The notes below the pieces were generated by a model. That model made no database searches. It was not told the DNA's origin and saw only the letters and a program-made list of their open reading frames with translations. The translations under genes were made by a program, and so were the position numbers. This document shows, piece after piece, positions 9,060 through 51,537 of a DNA stretch of 64,000 nucleotides. Within the stretch, counting starts at the first letter, position 1; every line of letters starts with the position of its first letter. Source of the DNA: Rhizobium acidisoli (lineage in GTDB: Bacteria > Pseudomonadota > Alphaproteobacteria > Rhizobiales > Rhizobiaceae); assembly GCF_002531755.2 (NCBI RefSeq), contig NZ_CP034998.1, positions 1,488,001 through 1,552,000 on the forward strand, read 5' to 3'.

Positions 9060-9269
9060 GAAAGTCTCCGCCAATCAGCAGCCGGGATGGCGGTGATGCC
9101 TGCGTAAACGCGTCAGTCGGCGGAAGGTTGCTGCACTGCACAATATTTTCTGAGCAGGCTGGATTTCCGGATGCGCGGGCAGCTCCGCGGGGCGAGGAAC
9201 TTCGGCCCGGAAATGACGTTGATGTTGTCGATTGACAGCATTGTCGCTGCAATTAGCGAGGCTTTTCAG

Positions 9270-9677
9270 ATGTCGAACAAACCCAACTTCTTCTCTTCCT
9301 TTGCGACCGTCGTCGCCGATTTCTCGGGAAAGCCGTTCACCTTTGTCGCGGCTCTGACGCTCGTGATTGCCTGGGCGGTGTCCGGTCCCTTTTTCGGCTA
9401 TTCTGAAACCTGGCAGTTGGTGATCAATACGACCACGACCATTATCACCTTCCTGATGGTCTTTGTATTGCAGAACAGCCAGAACCGCGACGGCAAAGCG
9501 GTTCAGGCCAAGCTCGACGAACTCATCCTGACGAGCCAGGCCGCCAACAAGTTCGTCGGCATCGAGAAGTTGGACGAGGGTGAACTCAGGGAAATGAGCA
9601 AGACGCTTGCCGCGCAAGCCGAATGTGTCGAGGAAAAAGCGGATGAGAAATCTGCCGCGGAGGCAGCCTCCACCTGA
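9270..9677 (+). CDS. Low-affinity iron permease (Fet4-like) family membrane protein
   Basis: A 135-residue bacterial member of the family named after yeast Fet4; whether these short proteins move iron is unproven. After a short amphipathic start there are two hydrophobic helices (about residues 20-38 and 48-66), then the conserved VLQNSQNRD motif, a KLDEL helix and a charged tail. The frame is open upstream to an ATG at 9171, but 9270 follows AGCGAGG at good spacing and matches the family N-terminus. A paralogue is encoded head-on at 9704-10063. Confidence 0.75.
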   Translation: MSNKPNFFSSFATVVADFSGKPFTFVAALTLVIAWAVSGPFFGYSETWQLVINTTTTIITFLMVFVLQNSQNRDGKAVQAKLDELILTSQAANKFVGIEKLDEGELREMSKTLAAQAECVEEKADEKSAAEAAST

Positions 9678-15091: not shown

Positions 15092-15411
15092 TCGGCAGTG
15101 CTCCGGCCCCTTGAAGCCGGCGATCTGACCTCACCACCACAGCAGCCCGTCGAGCTACCAACTCGGCGGGCGTCTTGTTTCCGGCGCCTGAACAAAGAAA
15201 AAGGTCGGGGCGATTGCTCGCGCCGACCTTCTTTGATTGCATCAGCGCGGTGCCAGTACATCCGTGGTCACCAGCAAAAGCTATCCGATGGATTGAATTT
15301 ATGCGCCTTGTGAATTTTCGCAAGGATTAGGGTATGCTGATTTAGAGCTAAAAGTGAAAAGAAAACGCCTGTCTTCGGATTTCTCAACGAAACGGGCGAT
15401 TAACTTGAAAA
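15092..15411. other. Intergenic region before tRNA-Asn
   Basis: Apart from the hairpin at 15199-15232 I see no gene. Frames on either strand are short, lack ribosome sites and give no recognisable product. Confidence 0.4.
15199..15232 (+). terminator. Terminator-like hairpin
   Basis: AAGGTCGG (15201-15208) pairs with CCGACCTT (15223-15230), extended by GCG/CGC across one mismatch, followed by TCTTT. It probably ends the transcript of the secreted Tyr-rich protein gene. Confidence 0.6.
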
Positions 15412-50076: not shown

Positions 50077-50220
50077 TTAACGGAACGAGCGGGATGCGAT
50101 ATTGCGGATGTCGTAACGGCTGACGCCGATATCGGACAGGGTCTGGTTCGAGAGGCCGCCGAGTTCGTTGAGCGTACGGCGGTAGCTGAGCCAGCTTCTT
50201 GCAATGCGGATCGGGTTCAT
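50077..50220 (-). CDS. DUF1127 small basic protein
   Basis: A 47-residue protein of the DUF1127 (YjiS-like) family: MNPIRIARSWLSYRRTLNEL, then GLSNQTLSDIGVSRYDI. Rich in arginine, with the SD.ID/GVSR motif. In Rhodobacter a DUF1127 protein (CcaF1) binds RNA and influences stress RNAs; in Agrobacterium members affect growth and phosphate metabolism. A terminator follows directly. AGGAAAAAGACA precedes the ATG. This frame is too short for most gene callers. Confidence 0.88.
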   Translation of the reverse strand: MNPIRIARSWLSYRRTLNELGGLSNQTLSDIGVSRYDIRNIASRSFR

Positions 50221-50435
50221 TGTCTTTTTCCTCAAACAAATGTCCGCTGGATGGCGGGATCGCCTCTCTCTCTGCGGTTGATGTTTATATAGGCGAGAAC
50301 CGCGCTTTTGTGCAGTGCAAATAAAAGGCGTCTGCTATGCAATTGTGCAATGTGATGCTTGCCAATTAAGCGGTGGATATTTTTTGAGCGGGCTAAAGCA
50401 CGCAAAGGCGTGCAACCGACGCGGCAGTGCGTCGG

Positions 50436-50473
50436 GAAAAAGAAAACGCCCGGTGTGGGTACAGCGGGCGTTT
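50436..50473 (-). terminator. Terminator after the second DUF1127 gene and its 3' RNA
   Basis: Arms AAACGCCCG (50444-50452) and CGGGCGTTT (50465-50473) pair; on the minus strand the stem runs into TTTTCTTTTTCCC. Confidence 0.85.
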
Positions 50474-50518
50474 CGATCGAGGACAAGCTGCTTGGGAGGA
50501 GACAGCGAATGCCTTGAA
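50438..50518 (-). ncRNA. Candidate CcsR/cuckoo-like 3'UTR RNA downstream of DUF1127
   Basis: Directly after the stop of the second DUF1127 gene the minus strand has a short hairpin: GCTG (50503-50506) and CAGC (50487-50490) enclose the loop TCTCCTCCCAAG, then the terminator above. CCUCCUCCC-type loops mark the cuckoo/CcsR RNAs, which in Rhodobacter are co-transcribed with a DUF1127 gene and cut from its mRNA. The stem is only four base pairs, so confidence is limited. Confidence 0.55.
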
Positions 50519-50665
50519 TTAGCGGGCGGAAGCCTCACGGGCAACGCGATGGATGTCCGAACGGTCGATGCCGAGGTCGTGCAATTCGCGGTTGCTCATG
50601 CGGCCGAGTTCGGTGACGGTCTGACGGTACTTGCGCCAGTTATTGAAAGAGCGAGAGAAGTTCAT
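50519..50665 (-). CDS. DUF1127 small basic protein, second copy
   Basis: A 48-residue protein: MNFSRSFNNWRKYRQTVTEL, then GRMSNRELHDLGIDRSDI and a short basic end. Same family as the neighbour at 50077, but only moderately similar. The gap to the first copy (298 bases) holds a terminator and an RNA candidate, so each probably has its own promoter. AAGGGGCTTAAC precedes the ATG. Confidence 0.9.
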   Translation of the reverse strand: MNFSRSFNNWRKYRQTVTELGRMSNRELHDLGIDRSDIHRVAREASAR

Positions 50666-51088
50666 GTTAAGCCCCTTTCCGAGGGTTTGATCTGCCAGCA
50701 GCCACTGATCGGCGCTGACCTCTATTTGATGACCGGAATATATGTTGCGGCGCGAAAGAGGAAAACAGCCAAGTTTTCAGATCACCTATGCGAAGTATGC
50801 AATGCTCAAACGCTGTTTGACCAACATCTACCGCTTTTTGGTCAACGAATAGGCAAAATGATTCTGAGGAAAGCAATCTGGTTTGGCGCAACGAACGGGC
50901 GTTCTTGCGTCAGAACGCCGTTCCCTCCGGCGGTTCCGCCTGTGCGTCCACCACAATGAGGCGTTTCGCCTCGGATCGACAGCCGCCCATGTATGCGCAG
51001 CCTCGGCGAGGGCGGTGTGGCGGCAGTGTGGCAAGACGGGGCCAAGCGGCCGAAATCTTGGGACGCCAATGCTTTAATGCGTTTTTGC
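50666..51088. other. Region upstream of the second DUF1127 gene
   Basis: Several short frames on both strands, none with a ribosome site or a recognisable product. It probably carries the DUF1127 promoter and the region between it and the RNA locus that follows. Confidence 0.4.
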
Positions 51089-51210
51089 GCAATAAGACGC
51101 CCGCCGGGGGAGGATCCGGCGGGCGCATTACGATGACTGGCAACTGGGAGGAGGAGTGTTGCCAGTCTTATCGCAGCGCGCTTGGGAGGAGGAGTGCGCG
51201 GCTGCGAATC
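51089..51210 (-). ncRNA. Candidate alpha-r14/cuckoo-type small RNA with three CUCC-loop hairpins
   Basis: Read on the minus strand, three hairpins follow one another. H1: arms at 51196-51206 and 51172-51181, loop ACTCCTCCTCCCAA. H2: GACTGGCAAC (51158-51167) and GTTGCCAGTC (51135-51144), perfect ten pairs, loop ACTCCTCCTCCCA. H3: CGCCCGCCGG (51116-51125) and CCGGCGGGCG (51098-51107), perfect ten pairs, loop ATCCTCCC, then TCTTATT as a weak terminator. The loops are complementary to Shine-Dalgarno sequences. This is the layout of the cuckoo/alpha-r14 RNAs of alphaproteobacteria, which lie near DUF1127 genes as here. The 5' end is not certain. Confidence 0.8.
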
Positions 51211-51537
51211 TCGTCACGGACAATCATTCCGCGGGCATCCGGCAGAGCCGGGCCGGGGCGCCATCCCCGTGCTTCGATGAGTCTTTAAATAGTATGACTA
51301 ATTGAATTTTTGCAGTGCAATAAATTCATGAGGGATGTGCGCAAAATGCATACCTCTCCGGATATGCACTTATAATAGCGCTGATGACGTTAGCGGCCGG
51401 TTAATACTCGCCCCAATTTAGACCAATGAGGAATTTGTATATTTGTCGCGAGGACGTTTGCGAACCTCGATGCTGCGTCTATAACGACGGAAGCCGCAGC
51501 GCCGGAACGAGCGTCGCGGAAGTCAAGGGGTGGGAGC
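51211..51537. other. Intergenic region between the RNA locus and the DUF2157 gene
   Basis: No gene supported. It includes a candidate minus-strand promoter at 51289-51320 and, further right, the leader of the DUF2157 gene. An AT-rich block lies at 51280-51370. Confidence 0.4.
51291..51320 (-). promoter_or_regulatory. Possible promoter of the RNA locus
   Basis: On the minus strand TTGCAC (51315-51320), 18 bases, CATACT (51291-51296). If used, transcription would start near 51283 and the primary RNA would be about 195 bases, longer than the hairpin part, so processing would be needed. Confidence 0.35.

Follow-up and report, generated by a model that had tools for sequence, protein, structure and literature searches.

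An alpha-r14 small RNA gene next to two DUF1127 genes in Rhizobium acidisoli, and its possible leader-bearing form

Small RNAs (sRNAs) of the alpha-r14 family have been described as three hairpins, each with the ultraconserved motif CCUCCUCCC (PMC10746234), and this anti-Shine-Dalgarno (anti-SD) motif is reported to be unpaired in all loops of the family (PMC7143759). RNA families with three and four such hairpin loops had already been described in 2011 (PMC3927594). In S. meliloti, the sRNA NfeR1 (SmrC14, SmelC397) sits between SMc02051 and tig (PMC2780559). Its promoter, CTTAGAC-N17-CTATAT, lies at the core, carries the motif TGCA-N6-GCAT and binds LsrB, which activates NfeR1; the sRNA silences ntrB through its anti-SD seeds, and its three motifs are redundant (PMC10746234). 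A further RNA of 217 nt, SmelC398, has been reported approximately 150 nt upstream of NfeR1 on the same strand (PMC2873474), and sm7' is listed in PMC2573895. In Rhodobacter sphaeroides, CcsR1-4 are described as co-transcribed with the DUF1127 protein CcaF1. In Brucella, the LysR-type regulator VtlR controls three DUF1127 genes and AbcR2 (PMC12595884).

In this work we analysed a stretch of 64,000 nucleotides of Rhizobium acidisoli DNA, called the window hereafter. An earlier note, made from the sequence alone, had drawn attention to 51089-51210, where the minus strand would form three successive hairpins with CUCC in their loops, and folding of 51080-51220 reproduced them, with a minimum free energy of -65.3 kcal/mol against a shuffle mean of -38.3 (sd 4.06; z -6.65; 0/200 shuffles as good). 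The note had also counted two stems as perfect over ten pairs and had guessed at the cuckoo/alpha-r14 family. A covariance-model search with Rfam, as the note had proposed, bore this out: RF02344 (ar14) matched over its full length with 111.3 bits, against a gathering threshold of 58.8 (E 9.9e-20 for the window). The core RNA is composed as follows.

51092..51212, minus strand: alpha-r14 (ar14, RF02344) sRNA core with three hairpins (cmscan 111.3 bits, model positions 1-123 of 123)
51171..51207, minus strand: hairpin 1, 11 pairs with one bulged C, loop 51182-51195 ACUCCUCCUCCCAA (fold)
51134..51167, minus strand: hairpin 2, 10 perfect pairs, loop 51145-51157 ACUCCUCCUCCCA (fold)
51097..51126, minus strand: hairpin 3, terminator-type, 11 perfect pairs in the model, shortened loop 51108-51115 AUCCUCCC (fold)

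The core thus has the three hairpins of RF02344 with a terminator-type hairpin at the end. The U-tract that follows hairpin 3 is weak (UCUUAUU) and a strict terminator scan listed no minus-strand terminator in the window, so the terminator role of this hairpin is taken from the ar14 family. The features of the cuckoo/CIN1 loci, i.e. two to four hairpins, a conserved loop motif and a DUF1127 gene nearby, are likewise all found here. The sequence TCCTCCTCCC occurs twice in the window, both times inside the core, with 0.11 occurrences expected and two or more in 1/100 shuffles. Membership of CcsR1 (RF02791) was rejected at 39.7 bits, under the cut-off of 65.3, and matches to 6C, sX13, Betaproteobacteria toxic sRNA and RAGATH-25, all under their own cut-offs, were taken as chance. 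The segment 51092-51212 of the minus strand is an ordinary copy of the known ar14/alpha-r14 family. A second Rfam sRNA of the window, ar35 (RF02346), was found at 15194-15300 on the minus strand (48.1 bits, cut-off 45).

The family is widespread. Eight ar14 copies lie above the cut-off in the genome itself, and all 60 genomes of the genus that were searched (own genome included) contain ar14, with 3 to 9 matches each. At the family level, matches with an E-value of 0.001 or less were obtained in 78/81 genomes, and 73/81 exceeded the cut-off, the own genome and one congener being among the 81. Four other copies in the genome of the window, G000 (L004-L007, on contigs C4, C2, C5 and C3), have an extra CACCTCCTCCC stretch just upstream of the ar14 core. 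Judged by eye, this stretch could fold into a fourth hairpin (CGAAGC...GCTTCG or GATGC...GCATC), as in the published four-hairpin SmelA099 type.

For comparison between relatives we used the 60 genomes of the genus, 50 of which yielded a syntenic locus (that of the window being L038). The other ten (G003, G014, G021, G024, G027, G031, G036, G037, G042 and G056), where the locus may be absent, were left out of the 50-locus set: for nine of them the best match covered the core only, and for G003 the match was not among the matches listed. The best match of G048 also covered the core only; it was taken, and proved to be syntenic. Compensatory changes, on which the earlier note had made its reading depend, are present in all three stems, with 11/31 pairs changed on both sides among the 47 distinct rows of the 50-locus alignment. 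In these rows 97.9% of the stem cells are standard pairs, which drops to 25-56% when the partners are slid by 1-3 columns, and 113 cells are changed on both sides against 34.8 in shuffles (0/500). Both-side changes affect 5/11 pairs of hairpin 1, 3/10 pairs of hairpin 2 and 3/9 main-helix pairs of hairpin 3; in hairpin 2 and in the main helix of hairpin 3, 100% of the cells are paired. The innermost pair of hairpin 3 is broken in 17/47 rows, where the loop length differs. Further pair types in the core stems showed no excess over shuffles (467/500).

The note had considered it unusual that the terminator hairpin, too, carries a CCUCC loop. This part did not hold: the RF02344 consensus has the CUCC motif in all three loops, the third one being ACCUCCUCCC, and the published descriptions (PMC10746234, PMC7143759, PMC3927594) concur, so members of the family normally have a CUCC loop on their terminator hairpin too. 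A novel three-loop RNA was ruled out on the same grounds. What differs is the third loop itself. The motif CCUCCUCCC is exact in loops 1 and 2 of the window, as it is in 50/50 syntenic loci, and loop 3 keeps only UCCUCCC. Among the syntenic loci, loop 3 has the full CCUCCUCCC in 17/50, one substitution in 1/50, eight of the nine bases in 1/50 and the seven-base form (U/C)CCUCCC, with seven of the nine motif bases, in 31/50, window included. Of the three loops, the third shows the least conservation in this clade and is the one that is eroding, which fits the published redundancy of the three motifs.

Upstream of the core, the alignment of the 50 loci revealed a conserved promoter-like block at about 75-138 bases from the core (from the conservation line over 50 loci, 16/50 rows being displayed). 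The following elements belong to this region.

51213..51280, minus strand: putative 5' leader with three small hairpins, outside the Rfam model (suggested by the upstream promoter-like block; ordinary fold energy)
51287..51292, minus strand: -10-like CTATTT (alignment of 50 loci)
51308..51320, minus strand: LysR-type box TTGCACTGCAAAA (three matches in the window with at most one mismatch, 0.17 expected)
51337..51350, minus strand: LsrB-like box, TGCA-N6-GCAC here and TGCA-N6-GCAT in several relatives (alignment)

A TTGCNCTGCANAA box is found upstream of ar14 in 47/50 loci, followed after 8-22 bases by a CTAT-type hexamer in 38/50, and a relaxed LsrB-like box in 44/50. TGCA-N6-GCAT was rejected as stand-alone evidence, as it occurs in the window at the expected frequency (3 found, 2.95 expected), so that only its conservation counts. 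A scan for E. coli-type promoters found none at the ar14 locus. The third match, to the TTGCACTGCANAA box with one mismatch, is at 9129-9143 on the plus strand and lies 28 bases before an open reading frame (9171-9677) with a Pfam hit to Iron_permease (PF04120, 156.4 bits).

The position of the conserved LysR-type promoter-like block implies a leader of approximately 67 nt with three hairpins. It is not an exceptional fold, its energy being no better than that of shuffles (z -0.61). The consensus fold over all 50 loci gave only two of the three hairpins, and the two groups of loci folded apart gave three each; one locus whose leader did not align (L070) was left out of the leader alignment (A4). 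In the group of 30 loci 96.2% of the cells pair, and 16 cells are changed on both sides against 4.3 in shuffles (0/500); counted as pairs, 3 against 2.5 (255/500), there is no excess. In the 19 other loci 92.6% pair, with 27 both-side-changed cells against 10.5 (0/500) and, as pairs, 5 against 3.3 (64/500), which is no clear excess. Covariation thus lends the leader hairpins moderate, mixed support. A small peptide in the leader was also considered: the loop of leader hairpin 1 contains AUGGCG or GUGGCG, but the reading frame, as judged by eye, is not preserved from one relative to another, and the idea was dropped. Titles and abstract openings of the literature on this RNA family yielded no description of the leader, a weak indication.

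The gene order in the window is trmFO (assigned by a Pfam GIDA match), DUF1127, DUF1127 and ar14, all on the minus strand, then DUF2157, GDYXXLXY and tig on the plus strand. Nine loci of other genera (L100-L107 and L109) have the reverse order, one or two DUF1127 genes being followed by two or three tandem ar14 genes and then trmFO, a CcaF1-CcsR-like arrangement. From the best rows of the family-level list, 20 places were taken, chosen mostly for tandem copies. The ar14 copy of the window occupies the place of the NfeR1 locus between SMc02051 and tig, Ensifer relatives having a DUF1127 gene at the SMc02051 slot (L090). Five Ensifer loci have two tandem ar14 genes here, the first preceded by a leader and the second placed straight behind a promoter-like block of its own. 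With the start set by a simple rule, the predicted leader-bearing transcript measures 211-225 nt in 5/5 of these loci, near the 217 nt of SmelC398, so that SmelC398 would itself consist of a leader and an alpha-r14 core, as the Ensifer relatives suggest. In a tree built from 24 cores, the window core clusters with the cores of the same locus from three Ensifer and three other family genomes, and not with six other copies of its own genome (split 0.92); the second copies from those loci branch from among the first copies, support elsewhere in the tree being often modest. The window copy is probably a co-orthologue of the SmelC398 and NfeR1 locus. An identity with NfeR1 itself was ruled out by the upstream layout: instead of a start at the core behind CTTAGAC-N17-CTATAT, the conserved block precedes a leader. 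The upstream region of locus L001 (contig C1, 99540) is more NfeR1-like than that of the window copy.

The same region can be read otherwise: the promoter-like block may serve something else, with the core starting beside hairpin 1 and the leader being spacer DNA. The ordinary energy and the mixed covariation of the leader would agree with this, and transcription of NfeR1-type copies appears to begin at the core itself. Set against it are the strong conservation of the upstream block, contrasted with the lack of any -10-like block conserved beside the core in the 50 aligned leaders, as judged by eye, and the fit between the Ensifer prediction and the length of SmelC398. We regard a leaderless core at this place as unlikely, and return to the leader-bearing form below.

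Two DUF1127 genes, placed by the note at 0.4-1 kb, were identified as PF06568 genes at 0.43 kb and 0.88 kb, downstream of ar14 and on the same strand, an arrangement shared by 50/50 syntenic loci.

50519..50665, minus strand: DUF1127 protein a, 48 aa (Pfam PF06568, 60.2 bits)
50788-50801, minus strand: LsrB-like TGCATACTTCGCAT upstream of DUF1127 a (motif search; weak alone, at the window frequency given above)
50077..50217, minus strand: DUF1127 protein b, 46 aa (Pfam PF06568, 49.7 bits)
50308-50320, minus strand: TTGCACTGCACAA box upstream of DUF1127 b (box search)
50441..50522, minus strand: 3' end of DUF1127 a, probably a degenerate alpha-r14 copy comprising one CUCCUCCC hairpin and one hairpin of terminator type

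The relaxed LsrB-like motif is present upstream of DUF1127 a in 50/50 loci and the TTGCNCTGCANAA (TTGC) box in 0/50; upstream of DUF1127 b the TTGC box is found in 48/50 and the relaxed LsrB-like motif in 0/50. The two genes may share an LsrB/VtlR-type regulon with ar14, though each carries a different box.

The element at the 3' end of DUF1127 a scores 24.9 bits with RF02344, below the cut-off of 58.8. Just past the DUF1127 a stop codon, 31/31 loci with a short third loop have a CCTCCC hairpin loop, against 0/19 others, six of which have CCTCC in the terminator loop instead. RF02344 also matched this 3' element, again below the cut-off (26.9-38.5 bits), in 8/9 tested short-loop loci and in 0/4 of the other group. 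As a full ar14 immediately follows a DUF1127 gene in one locus (L097), we read the element as probably a decayed alpha-r14 gene. The correlation between the short loop and the 3' hairpin may reflect one event, since the two groups of loci look like clades.

The locus as a whole is very probably best explained as an alpha-r14 sRNA gene, a likely co-orthologue of the SmelC398/NfeR1 locus, whose product would act in trans as a translational repressor, a function assigned by homology only. Transcription would start near 51280, driven by sigma-70 polymerase together with a LysR-type regulator of the LsrB/VtlR kind, giving an RNA of approximately 190 nt made up of the structured leader and the 121-nt core and ending at hairpin 3. 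On several mRNAs the C-rich loops would base-pair with the purine-rich Shine-Dalgarno region and keep ribosomes from entering, so that translation would drop, as reported for NfeR1. Independence of Hfq and induction by nitrogen or salt stress are further marks of NfeR1. The two neighbouring DUF1127 genes, with boxes of the same general kinds, may belong to the same regulon.

The loops could also act globally, by titrating Shine-Dalgarno sequences or ribosomes and not a chosen set of mRNAs, and the retention of the motif in loops 1 and 2 in 50/50 loci while the stems vary, together with the eight ar14 copies in the genome, speaks for this; NfeR1, however, has individual mRNAs as its published targets, and deleting this single copy gives phenotypes (PMC10746234, PMC7143759), which makes a global role improbable. 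That the hairpins are the 5' leader of the DUF1127 a mRNA, lying 0.43 kb away on the same strand, and sense ribosome supply by attenuation in cis, as does the C-rich leader of a DUF1127 gene of S. meliloti for which the main text of PMC12218461 gives no SMc number and which could even be this neighbour, is very improbable, given that the conserved LsrB-like motif before DUF1127 a suggests its own start, that the ar14 core finishes in a terminator-type hairpin, that the published leader uses a translated uORF starting 279 nt upstream of the gene and the core here lies at least 427 bases upstream, that the terms NfeR1 and anti-Shine have 0 occurrences in the text of that paper, and that the order is reversed, with DUF1127 before ar14, in the nine loci of other genera.

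With the trans-acting sRNA as the preferred reading, the residual interest of the locus lies in its leader-bearing form; the probable extra front piece and the shortened loop 3 are small local twists. We tentatively propose, with somewhat less than even confidence, that the DUF1127-linked alpha-r14 of Rhizobiaceae has a long form, in which a conserved, CUCC-free three-hairpin leader precedes the three anti-SD hairpins behind a LysR-type (LsrB/VtlR) promoter of the kind also marking both DUF1127 genes, and that the clade of the window has an alpha-r14 relic hairpin in the 3' end of DUF1127. If so, processing could separate the leader from the core, or the leader could govern how stable the RNA is, which proteins it binds or which targets it chooses, and studies of NfeR1-type RNAs should distinguish the long form from the short one. 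If the relic hairpin stays in the 3' end of DUF1127, an sRNA and a protein mRNA would carry the same seed. As to the loops, the third anti-SD loop in the terminator is the family norm, and the locus offers a case of loops 1 and 2 being kept while loop 3 erodes in one clade.

Compared with known systems, the window copy shares with NfeR1 (RF02344) the three hairpins, the anti-SD loops and the core length, as well as the place beside a DUF1127-type gene slot and tig and a LysR-type upstream box. It differs in its loop 3, shortened to UCCUCCC, and in its putative 67-nt leader, whereas SmrC14 has 123 nt by TAP-based 5' mapping and its terminator (PMC2780559). With SmelC398/sm7' it has in common the position and the presumed layout of leader plus core, which the five Ensifer loci display alike; in Ensifer, however, a second, leaderless copy follows, and at this place the window contains only one copy. 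The Rhodobacter sphaeroides RNAs CcsR1-4 (RF02791) resemble the window copy in their CCUCCUCCC loops and DUF1127 neighbour, but have two hairpins in the model and a reversed gene order. Finally, the SmelA075 and SmelA099 families, with three and four hairpins, respectively, are reported to have a CCUCCUCCC-like motif in every loop (PMC3927594), and the window copy has three hairpins.
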